Below are positions 1,468 through 29,922 of a stretch of DNA of 64,000 nt, piece by piece. Source of the stretch: Fibrobacter sp. (GTDB lineage Bacteria > Fibrobacterota > Chitinivibrionia > Chitinivibrionales > Chitinispirillaceae); the NCBI GenBank assembly GCA_012513915.1, contig JAAZBG010000099.1, positions 1-64,000 of the forward strand, in the 5' to 3' direction. The number at the start of each line of letters is the position of its first letter. The stretch's first letter is position 1. Under the pieces are notes generated by a model. That model did no database searches. It was not told the origin of the DNA and worked only from the letters and a program-made list of their open reading frames with translations. The position numbers were made by a program, and so were the translations under genes.

Positions 1468-3021
1468 TTAAAGAAATTCTTTTTCTACAGGAAGCTTGCG
1501 TTTAAACTTTTTCATGCGGGCAATTTTATTAATGATATCCATATAAGCAAGCGCTGATGCCTCAACGATATCGGTACTGGTACCACTACCGGTGAAAACT
1601 CCTTCAACCGCTTTTGCAATGATTGAAACACGCCCGAGAGCCTCACGCCCTTCTGTTACTGCGTCAAGATGATACTTCTCAACAGTCAGTTTATAACCAG
1701 CAATTCTGTCAATCGCCTTCGTCGCAGCATCAACGGCTCCATCACCGCACGCTGCTTCCTGAAACATTTTGCCACCGACACTGATCCTTGCTGTTGCAGT
1801 GGGAATGGTTCCCTTACCACTTGACACATTAAGATACTCAAGAACATAGGTGTCTTCAAGATCCTCTTTGCTCTTCGACTCCATGAGTGTCACGAGATCA
1901 TCATCGTAAACATGACCCTTTTTATCAGCAAGAGCCTTGAACCGGTCATAAAACGTCTGCATATCGAATTCATTTTCATTATAGCCGAGTTCAAGAAGCC
2001 GTGCTTTTACCATATGAGAACCTGAACGTCCTGTCAGATTCATCCTGTTTTCTTTCAGGCCAACTGACTGCGGAGTCATAATTTCATATGTTTTCTTCGC
2101 CTTGAGCACACCATCCTGATGTATTCCGGATGAATGTGAAAATGCGTTGCTTCCGACCACCGCTTTATTAGGCTGAACCGGCATATTACAGATATCACGC
2201 ACAAGCTTGCTTGTACGAATTATTTCCTTAGTGTCAACATCACTGGTTACACCGAAAAGATCATTTCTCACTTTCAGCGCCATCACAATTTCTTCAAGTG
2301 CTGCATTACCGGCACGCTCACCAATGCCGTTAATGGCACACTCCACCTGACGAGCCCCATGGGCGACTGCAGTCAGTGAATTTGCGGTTGCCATACCAAG
2401 ATCATCATGGCAATGCACAGATAGAATCGCCTTGTCAATATTCGGCACCCTGTTTATTAATGCATCAAATATACTCCCGAAATACTCAGGGATTGTATAG
2501 CCGACAGTATCAGGAATATTGATTGTTGTAGCACCAGCCGTAATTGCAGATTCTACGATTTTGCAAAGAAAATCAACACCGGTGCGTCCTGCATCCTCTG
2601 CAGAGAATTCCACATTATCGCAGTGTTTACGTGCGAGCTTTACATAAAACTTTACAATATCAAGAATCTCCTCCTCAGTTTTCCTGAGCTTCTTTTCAGT
2701 ATGAATTGCACTTGTCCCGATAAACGTATGAATGCGAGGACGTTCTGCGAATTTAACTGCTTTTGCACACGCAAGAATATCTTTCTCCACCGTTCTTGCA
2801 AGTCCGCAAATTACCGGCCCCTTTATTTCCTTTGCAATGGTTGCAACGGATTCAAAATCACCTGGAGATGAAACAGGGAAACCAGCTTCAATGACATCAA
2901 CTTTTAGTTTTGCCAGTTGACGTGCAATACGGAGTTTCTGATCGACTGACAGACTTGACATCAGTGCCTGCTCGCCATCACGCAGCGTCGTATCAAATAT
3001 TATAACTTTATCTTTATTCAT
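1468..3021 (-). CDS. leuA: 2-isopropylmalate synthase
   Basis: MNKDKVIIFDTTLRDGEQALMSSLS..., HCHDDLGMA, NGIGERAGNAALEE; C-terminal LeuA regulatory domain. Confidence 0.95.
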   Translation of the reverse strand: MNKDKVIIFDTTLRDGEQALMSSLSVDQKLRIARQLAKLKVDVIEAGFPVSSPGDFESVATIAKEIKGPVICGLARTVEKDILACAKAVKFAERPRIHTFIGTSAIHTEKKLRKTEEEILDIVKFYVKLARKHCDNVEFSAEDAGRTGVDFLCKIVESAITAGATTINIPDTVGYTIPEYFGSIFDALINRVPNIDKAILSVHCHDDLGMATANSLTAVAHGARQVECAINGIGERAGNAALEEIVMALKVRNDLFGVTSDVDTKEIIRTSKLVRDICNMPVQPNKAVVGSNAFSHSSGIHQDGVLKAKKTYEIMTPQSVGLKENRMNLTGRSGSHMVKARLLELGYNENEFDMQTFYDRFKALADKKGHVYDDDLVTLMESKSKEDLEDTYVLEYLNVSSGKGTIPTATARISVGGKMFQEAACGDGAVDAATKAIDRIAGYKLTVEKYHLDAVTEGREALGRVSIIAKAVEGVFTGSGTSTDIVEASALAYMDIINKIARMKKFKRKLPVEKEFL

Positions 3022-3143: not shown

Positions 3144-4244
3144 TTAGTTGCCTGAACGGCCGCCAATACCTTTTGCAGTTGCTGCTGTTTCTTTTGCTTT
3201 CTCTTTTGGACGAAGAGCACGAACAGCCTTACCGGTAAGCCACAATTCTGAATTACCAAGATCAGCAAGTTCCTTATTGAGTTTTTCTCTGTAGTCTGCT
3301 TTACCGCATGATGTAAGTGTACGTTTTGTCTCCGCACCATCTTTAACTGATTTATAAAGTTCTTTGAAAACCGGCAGTGTTGCCTTTTTGAACTTTGGTC
3401 TCCAGTCAAGAGCACCGCGCTGTGCAGTTGTTGAACAGTTGCCGAACATCCAGTCCATTCCGTTTTCATCAACAAGACGGATAAGACTCTGTGTAAGTTC
3501 TTCAACAGTTTCGTTAAAAGCTTCTGACGGGCTGTGACCGTTCTTGCGAAGCACTTCAAACTGTGCTTCCATAATACCGGCAAGAGCACCCATGAGCACA
3601 CCGCGTTCACCGGTGAGATCGCTGTACACCTCCTTCTCGAATGTTGTCGGGAAAAGATAGCCTGAACCTACGCCGATTCCAAGAGCAAGTGTACGTTCCA
3701 TTGCTTTTCCGGTTGCATCCTGGAATACTGCAAAACTTGAGTTGATTCCTGCACCGTTAAGAAAATTACGACGGACATTAAGACCGCTTCCCTTTGGAGC
3801 AACAAGGATAACATCAACATCTTTCGGCGGAATCACTTTTGTCTGATCTTTGTAGACAATTGAGAATCCGTGTGAGAAATAGAGTGCCTTGCCTGGAGTG
3901 CAATATTTTTTAATTCTCGGCCAGAGCGCTTTCTGCCCGGCATCTGAAACGAGGAACTGAATAATCGTTGCTTTTTCACAAGCTTCTTCAATGTCAAACA
4001 GCGTTTCTCCAGGAACCCATCCATCTTTCTTAGCGCGATCCCAGTTCACCTTTGATGCCTTATTCTGACCAACGATTACATTAAAACCATTATCCTTAAG
4101 GTTTAATGCCTGTGCAGGTCCCTGAACACCATACCCGATAATCGCGATAACTTCCTTCTGTAAAACCTTTCTGGCTTTTGCGAGTGTAAACTCTTTACGG
4201 GTGACAATTTCTTCTTTCGTGCCACCAAAATCGATCAGTGCCAT
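3144..4244 (-). CDS. ilvC: Ketol-acid reductoisomerase
   Basis: IIGYGVQGPAQALNLKDNGFNVIVGQ Rossmann motif and acetohydroxyacid isomeroreductase C-terminal domain; located in the ilv operon. Confidence 0.93.
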   Translation of the reverse strand: MALIDFGGTKEEIVTRKEFTLAKARKVLQKEVIAIIGYGVQGPAQALNLKDNGFNVIVGQNKASKVNWDRAKKDGWVPGETLFDIEEACEKATIIQFLVSDAGQKALWPRIKKYCTPGKALYFSHGFSIVYKDQTKVIPPKDVDVILVAPKGSGLNVRRNFLNGAGINSSFAVFQDATGKAMERTLALGIGVGSGYLFPTTFEKEVYSDLTGERGVLMGALAGIMEAQFEVLRKNGHSPSEAFNETVEELTQSLIRLVDENGMDWMFGNCSTTAQRGALDWRPKFKKATLPVFKELYKSVKDGAETKRTLTSCGKADYREKLNKELADLGNSELWLTGKAVRALRPKEKAKETAATAKGIGGRSGN

Positions 4245-4324: not shown

Positions 4325-4804
4325 CTACTTTTTGTTCGACAATGCAATAGTGCCGGACCTGACCAGTTCCCGAATGCCATAAGGCTTTACAAGACTGATA
4401 AAATCCTCCACAATGCGTTTCGCTCCGGCAATTTCGAGTGTAATTGCACTATGTGAAACTGCAGCGATTTTAGCATTGTACATTGATGCCAGTTCGAGAA
4501 TCTCGTGACGGGTCGATTTGGTCGAATCAACCTGCACCAGCACCAGTTCCCGTTCAACATAATCGTCATCAACCATCTCAATCACTTTGATTACATCAAT
4601 CAGGCGGTTGAGCTGCTTTACAATCTGCTCAAGAACATTTGCTTCACCATCAACCACGATGGTCATACGGGAAATCGTCGGATCATCAGTCTCAGCAACG
4701 GTCAGGCTTGAAATATTATACCCGCGGCTCGAGAACAATCCTGCTACTCTTGACAATGCGCCACTGTGGTTCTCAAGCATTATTCCAATGATTCGTGTGC
4801 TCAT
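4325..4804 (-). CDS. ilvH: Acetolactate synthase small subunit
   Basis: ACT domain: IIGIMLENHSGALSRVAGLFSSRGYNISSLTVAETDDPTISRMTIVV. Confidence 0.95.
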   Translation of the reverse strand: MSTRIIGIMLENHSGALSRVAGLFSSRGYNISSLTVAETDDPTISRMTIVVDGEANVLEQIVKQLNRLIDVIKVIEMVDDDYVERELVLVQVDSTKSTRHEILELASMYNAKIAAVSHSAITLEIAGAKRIVEDFISLVKPYGIRELVRSGTIALSNKK

Positions 4805-6528
4805 TATCCCTCCAGAATTTCATCAATAGGTTTACCGGCCGGGACCATCGGAAAAACATTCTCCTCGGCTGATACAATGAACTCCATAAGCACAGGCCCA
4901 TCAATACCAAGCCCCTGATGCAGCACGGGGGTAATATCTGCTACCGTTTCAGCCCTGAACGCCGGGATATTGTAACTCTTAGCAAGAGCGACAAAATCGG
5001 GTACATACTTTTTCGTACATTTTTCAGGACCGGGACATGATTTACACAGAATGCCTCCGCGTAAACATGTTGAACTGTAGCGTTTATTGTGAAAAAGTTC
5101 CTGCCACTGGCGCACCATACCTAAATAACTATTGTTGAGAATTACAATCTTAACCGGTATTTTGTTTAATGACAGTGTAGCAAGTTCCTGGATATTCATC
5201 TGTATTGAACCATCACCGGCCATTGCCACAACAGTTTTTCCATGAGCACCAAACGCTGCACCCATTGCCGCAGGCAGGCCAAAACCCATTGTTCCAAGCC
5301 CACCGGATGTCAGCAGCGTTCTTGGTTTTGTAAAGGTATAATATTGTGCAGTCCACATCTGATGCTGCCCGACTTCGGTCGTAACGATTGCATCACCCTT
5401 CGTCTCTCTGTAAACCGCTTCAATAACAGCCTGAGGTTTAATATCAGTGTCCGATTTTACATACGAAAAGAGACGTTCACCCTTCCAGATTGCAATTTTA
5501 TCGCTCCATGCATCAACGGGACGAGGTTTTACGATCTCGTTAAGTACCCTGAGCGTCCGTTTTGCATCGCCGACTATCGGACAATCTACCTTGATTATTT
5601 TTGAAATTGCAGCCGGATCGACATCTATATGAATAATTGATGCATTCGGCGCAAACTTTGCAACATACCCTGTCACACGGTCATCAAACCGTGCACCGAT
5701 TGACACTATAAGATCACACTCCTGCAATGCATAGTTTGCGGCTTTTGCACCATGCATCCCCGGCATTCCGATAAAGAGCGGATGATTACCCGGAAAACTC
5801 CCAAGCCCCATCAGGGTTGTTGTCACGGGAATGTTTGTTTTTTCAGCAAGTTCCCGCAGTTCATCATAAGCAGCCGAGTGAATTATTCCACCACCACTAA
5901 AGATTACCGGCTTTTTTGCTGCATCAATCATTTCAGCTGCTTTGCGAATCTGTTTTATATGACCATCAAGATTCGGTTTGTAACTGCGAATTGACACCGA
6001 TTCCGGATATAAGTAATCCTCAAGCACCGCCCGTGATACATCAACGGGAATATCGATAAGCACCGGACCAGGTCTGCCGGTACGAGCGATATAGAAAGCC
6101 TGCTTAAGCAACGTCGGCAGTTCGTTAATTGACCGTACAAGGAAATTATGTTTTGTAACCGGTCGGCTCATTCCGACTATGTCAGCTTCCTGAAATGCAT
6201 CGGTACCAAGGAGCGGCGTTGCCACCTGTCCGGTTATTGCAACCATCGGAATCGAATCGAGGTACGCAGTTGCAATACCGGTCATAATGTTGGTTGCGCC
6301 AGGTCCCGATGTCACCAGACAAACACCTACATCACCAGTAGCGCGGGCATACCCGTCAGCTGCATGTGCCGCAGCCTGCTCATGACGAGTCAGGACAAAC
6401 TCCAGATTTTCCGTATCGTAAAGCACATCAAAAATAGGAATTACGACACCACCAGGATATCCGAAGACAACCTTGACTCCCTCCTGAATGAGAGCGTCAA
6501 TTACAATTTGTGCACCAGTTTTTTTCAA
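4804..6528 (-). CDS. ilvB: Acetolactate synthase large subunit
   Basis: ThDP-dependent enzyme: GAQIVIDALIQEGVKVVFGYPGGVVIPIFD, GDGSIQMNIQELAT; overlaps ilvH by one base. Confidence 0.95.
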   Translation of the reverse strand: MKKTGAQIVIDALIQEGVKVVFGYPGGVVIPIFDVLYDTENLEFVLTRHEQAAAHAADGYARATGDVGVCLVTSGPGATNIMTGIATAYLDSIPMVAITGQVATPLLGTDAFQEADIVGMSRPVTKHNFLVRSINELPTLLKQAFYIARTGRPGPVLIDIPVDVSRAVLEDYLYPESVSIRSYKPNLDGHIKQIRKAAEMIDAAKKPVIFSGGGIIHSAAYDELRELAEKTNIPVTTTLMGLGSFPGNHPLFIGMPGMHGAKAANYALQECDLIVSIGARFDDRVTGYVAKFAPNASIIHIDVDPAAISKIIKVDCPIVGDAKRTLRVLNEIVKPRPVDAWSDKIAIWKGERLFSYVKSDTDIKPQAVIEAVYRETKGDAIVTTEVGQHQMWTAQYYTFTKPRTLLTSGGLGTMGFGLPAAMGAAFGAHGKTVVAMAGDGSIQMNIQELATLSLNKIPVKIVILNNSYLGMVRQWQELFHNKRYSSTCLRGGILCKSCPGPEKCTKKYVPDFVALAKSYNIPAFRAETVADITPVLHQGLGIDGPVLMEFIVSAEENVFPMVPAGKPIDEILEG

Positions 6529-6633: not shown

Positions 6634-6672
6634 AAAACAGAAAAGCCCGCTTCCCGGTAAGGAAACAGGCTT
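6634..6672 (-). terminator. Intrinsic terminator/attenuator hairpin upstream of ilvB
   Basis: Minus strand AAGCCTGTTTCC (6661-6672), loop TTACCG, GGAAGCGGGCTT (6643-6654): 12 consecutive pairs, 2 of them G-U, followed by TTCTGTTTTT. Confidence 0.85.
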
Positions 6673-6697
6673 AATTTTTTAAAATTTCTATTTAAAC

Positions 6698-6793
6698 TTA
6701 AAAACCTGTCTCCCTTTGCCATGGTAGAATGACCACAGCAATGCTAATGATGCTAATGACAGGAATAAAAGCTATTAAATTTTTCTTTTTCAT
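6698..6793 (-). CDS. ilv leader peptide (31 aa), MKKKNLIAFIPVISIISIAVVILPWQRETGF
   Basis: Not in the ORF track. ATG at 6793 to TAA at 6698; 7 Ile, 3 Val and 2 Leu of 31 residues, immediately upstream of a terminator hairpin and ilvB. No strong Shine-Dalgarno seen. Confidence 0.8.
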   Translation of the reverse strand: MKKKNLIAFIPVISIISIAVVILPWQRETGF

Positions 6794-6839
6794 TTGTATA
6801 TAAACTACAAGATGTTTGCAGGCAAATCAAGTTTTTTGT

Positions 6840-28629: not shown

Positions 28630-29922
28630 ATGAAAATCGCCCCAAAAATCACTGCTGTTTTTTTACTTCTTGCAGCCATGCTTTCAGCTCAGAGTCTCAC
28701 TGGATCGTTTACTATCACACTGAAAGGCCCCGCAACCGGTGATCAGATCAACATTGTAAAGGCTGGTGCACGCACAATGCTGAAAAATGAAATAATCAGT
28801 TGGCTGAAAACCTCACACGAATTCAAATTTGATACAACAAACGTTCTGACAAATCTTGCGATAGAAATTCTCACCGACTCATGTATCAACCATGGCAAAG
28901 AGGAGTCATCATTTAAAGGTCGCGAATTGTCAATTTTTTATACGGTAACTGAAGCTGCTGCCGATGATGCCTTGAATTCATTCGACAGAGCATCTGAAGA
29001 GTTTGTTCGCAGGAATATCATCACCATGCAGAACGCTGAGAAAGACAGTAACAATGCAGCGTATTTCAAATCAGCACTGATAGCATATTGCTACTCTTAT
29101 GGTCATTTTGGAGAACCGATCATCCTTGATGAAGCCACAGGCGTGACAGTTGTCGAAGAAACCCAGAAAATCGTTCATAATCTTTTCAACCGGTTAAAAA
29201 TCCAGTCATCTGACATGATATTGCAGGGAAGAATCGGAAGGGCTGTTGATCAGCCGCCAATCGTGACAGCAGTACTTGACAGTACACCGATCAATGATTT
29301 GTGGTTCTGCGGGTATTTACAATCTGGCAAATATATCTATGCCGGCGTTACTGATGATCAGGGACAGTTGACTCTTAAGGATATGATGATCCCTCTTGTA
29401 TCCAATGGTACTCTTTACTCGCTTACACCTGATATCGGAAAAACCATAGGTGCACCGGTTTCCATAACACTTACCGATTTAAAAATCCAGGTCAAGGATG
29501 GTCATACTCAAACATTTATGTTTAAGGTAATTCAGCCGACTTATTCACTCGACTATAAGATTTCATCCGGTTCAGACCTGTCACTTCCTCCGGAATTTCT
29601 TAGCGATGCTGTTCTGAAAAAATATCTCAAAGATTCCTGTTTTGTTGTTGATACAAAGCCAAATGTTCCACCTGACTTCATGATTACCGCAGATCTTACT
29701 GTCGCCAATGCAGCAGTTGATATTACCGATGAAATGGGACTAAAAGTCACCGGCACTATTACCATTAAGGGATTATCCCTTGAAACTCCGAGAACTGAAA
29801 TAAAAAATGTCGAATATATCAAGCGTTACGCAAAAAGAACAGAAATCCCCTATGGCCTGGCGCTATGGGATATGAATATGCTTATGAAGCAAAACATGAA
29901 GTCAATCCTTAGTAAAATGTGA
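28630..29922 (+). CDS. Secreted protein of unknown function
   Basis: Signal peptide, AAGGAG before ATG, 430-aa open frame; no family recognised. Confidence 0.7.

Follow-up and report, generated by a model that had tools for sequence, protein, structure and literature searches.

A predicted leader-peptide transcription attenuator upstream of ilvB in an order of the Fibrobacterota

In the window, by which we mean the whole 64,000-nucleotide stretch of DNA analysed here, a short ORF rich in Ile, Val and Leu codons precedes a terminator-like hairpin and the acetolactate synthase gene ilvB, which raises the question of whether a ribosome reading this ORF decides if transcription continues into ilvB. 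Comparison with related genomes suggests that a conserved attenuator is real and very probably ribosome-mediated.

Leader region and downstream operon

The leader comprises the following elements:

6793-6698, minus strand: leader ORF, with ATG at 6793-6791 and stop codon TAA at 6700-6698; 31 codons, Ile/Val/Leu-rich, no Shine-Dalgarno sequence, predicted to be leaderless
6758-6763, minus strand: candidate segment 1 (protector), CCTGTC, which pairs with GACAGG of segment 2 in the centroid fold
6725-6736, minus strand: V20-V21-I22-L23, the last regulatory codons, at which a stalled ribosome would leave segment 2 free
6714-6702, minus strand: segment 2, the antiterminator 5' arm GGGAGACAGGTTT, within the final codons of the leader ORF
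6672-6660, minus strand: segment 3, AAGCCTGTTTCCT, which serves as the terminator 5' arm and also as the antiterminator 3' arm
6634-6655, minus strand: segment 4, the terminator 3' arm GGGAAGCGGGCTT, with the T-rich tail

The encoded leader peptide, MKKKNLIAFIPVISIISIAVVILPWQRETGF, contains 12 Ile, Val or Leu residues among its 31, and both sequence and translation agree with the original prediction of this locus. The 12-pair hairpin with a U-rich tail that had been described ahead of ilvB is found at 6672-6643 (minus strand), where 12-13 pairs are followed by a T-rich tail; the gap between the stop codon and this hairpin is also present, but measures 25 nt on recount rather than 26. The alternative 9-bp pairing of CCTGTTTCC (6669-6661) with GGAGACAGG (6713-6705) in the last leader codons was likewise recovered, and a scan lengthens it to the full segments 3 (6672-6660) and 2 (6714-6702).

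When both strands of the 64-kb window were scanned for a short ORF ending over the complement of a terminator arm, this locus was the only match. The attenuator arrangement was reproduced in 1 of 2,000 dinucleotide shuffles of the leader region, and in none with at least 38% Ile, Leu and Val, and the leader RNA fold has a z-score of -3.9. An Ile/Leu/Val content of at least 40% is reached by 7.8% of the short ORFs in the window, and richness in these residues, taken alone, is weak evidence for an attenuator.

The leader unit stands upstream of four genes:

4804-6528, minus strand: ilvB, acetolactate synthase large subunit (TPP_enzyme N, M and C domains), with a TTG start and the Shine-Dalgarno sequence ACGGAGA
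4325-4804, minus strand: ilvN, acetolactate synthase small subunit (ACT_AHAS_ss, ALS_ss_C)
3144-4244, minus strand: ilvC, ketol-acid reductoisomerase (KARI_N, KARI_C)
1468-3021, minus strand: leuA-type 2-isopropylmalate synthase (HMGL-like, LeuA_dimer), the last gene of the presumed operon

The predicted function of ilvB-ilvN-ilvC-leuA fits an attenuator that would sense Ile, Val and Leu.

Conservation and covariation of the unit

The source genome is placed in an order within the Fibrobacterota that is separate from Fibrobacter, on the grounds that one family among the genomes of its phylum carries the Fibrobacter-specific TIGR02171 above the cut-off of that model, in contrast to all 14 control genomes. 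No congener was among the genomes compared, which included 40 of this order. The leader-terminator unit precedes ilvB in 36 of the 40: with a covariance model built on the unit, 33 genomes give a match, 32 of them at ilvB, and inspection reveals it in four further genomes (G021, G034, G037 and G039). Two genomes (G029 and G038) contain ilvB with no such unit upstream, and no ilvB was found in another two (G023 and G033). All 30 orthologous loci that were read first (L001 and L003-L031) present a short ORF whose end overlies or adjoins a copy of the terminator's 3' arm, followed by a terminator, and in the main inspected loci ilvB is ~62-79% identical to that of the window. The leader peptides average 43% Ile/Val/Leu over 34 leaders, compared with 25% for the short ORFs of the window. 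Elsewhere in the phylum, the covariance model yields weak matches only (E 1e-5 to 1e-3 in Fibrobacter-family genomes), and reading by eye upstream of ilvB in genomes of the Fibrobacter family (f8) and of f11 reveals no such unit. A contig search returned only ilvB relatives from other phyla, at most 59% identical, and these were left out of the leader comparison.

Covariation of the 2:3 stem and of the 3:4 stem had been proposed as a check on the original prediction, and compensatory changes are indeed observed in each. In an alignment of 26 leaders, pairing reaches 95.5% in the 3:4 terminator stem, which shows 29 double-change cells where shuffles give 10.6; for the 2:3 antiterminator stem the figures are 91.9%, and 20 such cells where shuffles give 6.7. 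These counts are not probabilities, since the relatives share ancestry. Sliding the partner by a single column lowers pairing to 58-65%. Several columns display concerted changes in all three segments (columns 30/72/96, for example, shift from G.C.G to A.T.A), a pattern that pairing of segment 3 with segment 2 and also with segment 4 would produce. Thus, both the short ORF and its alternative stems are conserved in relatives, the opposite of the outcome that had been named as refuting the original prediction.

A structured RNA might also be a riboswitch, a T-box or a protein-binding leader that contains an ORF by chance, yet beyond the structure itself nothing favours such an identity, and the leader alignment contains no conserved sequence block outside segments 2-4. 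Searches of the window region against Rfam at E-values up to 1 returned no relevant match to a leader family, T-box or riboswitch, and at gathering scores none was obtained in the ilvB or ilvB2 loci of six relatives or in the genome's own ilvB2 locus. Known Rfam leaders, T-boxes and riboswitches were rejected on these grounds, and we regard an element of this kind, known or not, as extremely improbable.

Promoters, ribosome position and proposed mechanism

Two predicted promoters flank the leader:

6802-6830, minus strand: P1, with -35 TTGATT at 6830-6825, a 17-nt spacer and -10 TAGTTT at 6807-6802
6617-6589, minus strand: P2, with TTGATT at 6617-6612, a 17-nt spacer and TATTTT at 6594-6589, located 3' of the terminator

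The layout of P1 in the window is TTGATT-17-TAGTTT-8-ATG, so that transcription is predicted to begin at the leader ATG or immediately beside it. A promoter of the form TTGNNN-16/18-TANNNT ending 5-9 nt before the ATG is found in 25 of the 34 leaders, where shuffling of these sequences gives an expectation of 0.36. A Shine-Dalgarno match of at least 4 is absent from all 25, in contrast to seven of the other nine leaders and 31 of 34 ilvB genes. Versions of the unit in families f3, f6 and f7 of the order lack the leaderless promoter spacing, and the majority have a Shine-Dalgarno sequence. The missing Shine-Dalgarno sequence, noted as a weakness in the original prediction, would be explained by the position of the ATG at the predicted transcription start; the absence itself stands, and the accompanying remark that the ORF may be leaderless gains the backing of the promoter spacing, from which feature only we judge the leader ORF most likely to be leaderless.

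The sequence TTGATT-17/18-TATTTT follows the terminator in most relatives, usually 20-26 nt past it, and is a perfect 12/12 match in 19 of the 34 loci. Transcription from this predicted promoter would generate an ilvB mRNA that bypasses the attenuator, such that ilvB transcription need not all pass through it; an ilvB start downstream of 6672, which had been listed as refuting the original prediction if mapped, probably exists beside P1, with the attenuator not abolished. P2 could furnish most of the ilvB mRNA, in which case the contribution of the attenuator would be minor. In relatives, an ACTGTTT / AGCTGTTTT stretch recurs after the -10 box of P2, around the predicted start (~6588-6576 in the window).

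Just upstream of P1, at ~7028-6840 on the minus strand of the window, lies a Cys-rich 62-aa ORF that ends with EGNFPCYKTANDFCDQVECCWREDCLSEK and has no Pfam match. It stops 49 nt ahead of the leader ATG and runs in the same direction, and this proximity, together with the high conservation of P2 after the hairpin, would suit a scenario in which the hairpin is the plain terminator of the upstream unit, ilvB is transcribed from P2 only and the leader ORF is incidental. However, the 62-aa gene is located upstream in only 4 of 34 loci (the window and three of the 33 others, L009, L012 and L015), whereas the leader ORF, segment 2 and the terminator stay linked. Moreover, a plain terminator needs neither covariation between segments 2 and 3 nor a promoter 5-9 nt ahead of the ORF. 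Given that the unit is conserved and the upstream gene is not, we reject this explanation as very improbable.

If a ribosome is assumed to cover ~15 nt on the 5' side of the codon being decoded and 12-13 nt on its 3' side, one positioned at the stop codon masks segment 2 entirely in 29 of the 30 leaders, and 11 of its 13 nt in the remaining one. Each leader has 9-16 Ile/Leu/Val codons at a sufficient distance upstream for a ribosome stalled on them to leave segment 2 free; in the window leader, segment 2 begins in codon 27 and L23 is the last such codon. The stop codon and segment 3 are separated by 14-31 nt in 29 leaders and by 47 nt in the thirtieth (L016). Under this footprint, the geometry agrees with the original proposal that translation to the stop covers segment 2 and that stalling upstream exposes it. 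The ORF, the stems and their covariation, this geometry and the promoter spacing together support the leader-peptide reading, and on the basis of such sequence comparison we are highly confident that the unit would act as a ribosome-mediated transcription attenuator for ilvB-ilvN-ilvC-leuA.

Equilibrium folding of naked RNA yields the terminator in nearly all leaders. With a stalled ribosome, the window leader still has a terminator probability of 0.92, and 28 of the 29 others have values of 0.84-1.00; antitermination was obtained in L028 alone, and equilibrium folding was consequently rejected as a simulation of the stalled state. Since equilibrium favours the terminator despite the stalled ribosome, antitermination would have to be kinetic: in this model the 2:3 pairing must form before segment 4 is made and be held through the U-tract. 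The pairing of segment 2 with upstream leader sequence exceeds that of shuffles (mean 0.77 versus 0.55) in all of the 30 leaders, which are non-independent relatives, and the window leader's own 1:2 excess is weak, with a fraction of 0.27 of its shuffles at least as high. Such pairing is consistent with a 1:2 protector and with default termination when translation does not occur.

For the mechanism, we infer transcription starts, translation, a starvation response and kinetic antitermination as follows. Polymerase would start at P1, at or beside the leader ATG, and a ribosome would begin on the leaderless ATG and trail it. With ample charged Val, Ile and Leu tRNA, the ribosome would reach the stop codon and cover segment 2, so that segments 3 and 4 pair and transcription terminates before ilvB. 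When charged tRNA is scarce, stalling on the Ile/Val/Leu codons would leave segment 2 free to pair with segment 3 once the latter emerges, and polymerase would read on. If no ribosome engages, segment 2 would be held by upstream sequence (1:2) and termination would ensue by default. P2 would supply a basal level independent of the attenuator, which in turn would set the share contributed by P1 above this floor.

The predicted leaderless start in most leaders, and a default of termination when translation is lacking, might also be expected of an attenuator that sensed the general capacity for translation or its initiation (70S/leaderless initiation, for instance) instead of the supply of branched-chain amino acids. 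Relative to other short ORFs, however, the leader peptides are enriched in Ile/Leu/Val, with these residues clustered immediately ahead of segment 2, and these amino acids are precisely the products of the operon. We consider sensing of general translation capacity to be very unlikely, slightly more so than a plain upstream terminator, and retain branched-chain amino acid supply as the probable signal.

Related units and known attenuators

The genome contains a second acetolactate synthase gene, ilvB2 (G000:C306), which is 48% identical to the window ilvB. The leader MNSHKNFTQLLTTALTLVVVVVVVTITPS, a Val/Thr/Leu peptide, lies with its own terminator ~275 nt upstream of this gene (L191), and ilvB2 looks to be attenuated as well, by its own Val-rich leader. 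Tandem Val-rich leader-terminator units are seen before ilvB2 in two other genomes (L188, G008:C315; L189, G006:C340), for example MMNSQYLTVVVLGVVRFLP followed by MKQKLSNLISNTINLIILSLTLVSVIVTVVVVVSVPP. In family f9, the leader MKYRIHSLVSLITVVLIVPQCRGARG and a terminator precede an ilvD-ilvB operon (L184, 809-729 on the minus strand; G041:C28, ~29730-29810). The end of this leader resembles those of ilvB leaders (compare VIIVPQMRETGI in L006), which suggests that the attenuator unit may be older than the order. In family f11 (L177, 503-661; L178, 510-676), a leader ending VWAIIPxGxxGAA over GGGAGCGG is followed by a CCCGCTCCC terminator and precedes a predicted multi-pass transporter gene (EamA/DMT-like by eye), not ilvB. 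No similar attenuator was found in the stretches scanned at the genome's own histidinol dehydrogenase, homoserine dehydrogenase and two chorismate-binding enzyme regions, where operon starts may lie outside those stretches.

The E. coli ilvGMEDA and ilvBN operons are controlled by leader-peptide attenuators, the former responding to Ile, Val and Leu and the latter to Val and Leu. They share with the unit described here a leader peptide rich in branched-chain amino acids, mutually exclusive 2:3 and 3:4 pairings and an operon of the same pathway; the 1:2 pairing of E. coli has a candidate counterpart here. Moreover, E. coli likewise has two acetolactate synthase loci with their own attenuators, one mixed Ile/Val/Leu and one dominated by Val, and the window ilvB and ilvB2 may divide their roles in a parallel way. 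The Fibrobacterota unit differs from E. coli in its predicted leaderless leader peptide, in the conserved predicted promoter just after the terminator, and in the location of segment 2 inside the last ORF codons, where a ribosome at the stop codon would cover it directly.

Experiments support leader-peptide attenuation of the ilv operons of M. tuberculosis (PMC13236596) and of C. glutamicum (PMC11857589). The operon type of M. tuberculosis ilvB1NC and C. glutamicum ilvBNC is the same as here, and in M. tuberculosis ilvB1NC the antiterminator arm is hidden by a ribosome that has reached the stop codon, with 'LVVI' codons proposed as the stall site (PMC13236596). These are Actinobacteria with mapped transcripts and tested leader mutants (PMC13236596, PMC11857589), whereas the Fibrobacterota unit is predicted from sequence comparison. 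Attenuation of ilv by leader peptides has also been predicted in other Actinobacteria (PMC1262725). A passage of that paper citing earlier work describes a similar-looking ilvB leader in Streptomyces coelicolor in which changing the supposed regulatory codons elicited no response (PMC1262725); by analogy, this result would count against the attenuator reading here. The transcript of the Sinorhizobium meliloti trpL attenuator begins with the leader-peptide ATG (PMC7298713), as predicted here, but concerns the Trp operon of an alphaproteobacterium. Salmonella mgtCBR has two short ORFs in series in its leader (PMC3641672), comparable to the tandem ilvB2 leaders of G008 and G006; it differs in being an Mg2+/virulence operon, whereas the G008/G006 tandems are Val-rich attenuators that precede ilvB2 and not the window ilvB.

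Leader-peptide systems were known only from Proteobacteria and Actinobacteria at the time of a 2010 survey, which added Firmicutes (PMC2965389). Our search for literature on leader peptides or attenuators in Fibrobacter/Fibrobacteres found no relevant report, with most subscription journals outside its reach, and the unit is apparently a known kind of switch unreported for Fibrobacterota. A more tentative idea, which we consider possible but doubtful, is that leaderless initiation plays a functional role in attenuators of this class in the Fibrobacterota: a 70S ribosome and polymerase would load on the same nucleotides, such that each transcript is read from its first codon, with P2 as the unattenuated floor, with Shine-Dalgarno-led and leaderless sensors exchanged while the stems were kept, and with the ilvB2 attenuators duplicated in series. 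The present reading would extend classical leader-peptide attenuation to the Fibrobacterota. The leaders would also constitute a clean comparative set, in which the same stems occur with Shine-Dalgarno-led or leaderless starts and as single or tandem units, a natural series in which to examine the contribution that the leader gene's start makes to attenuation.
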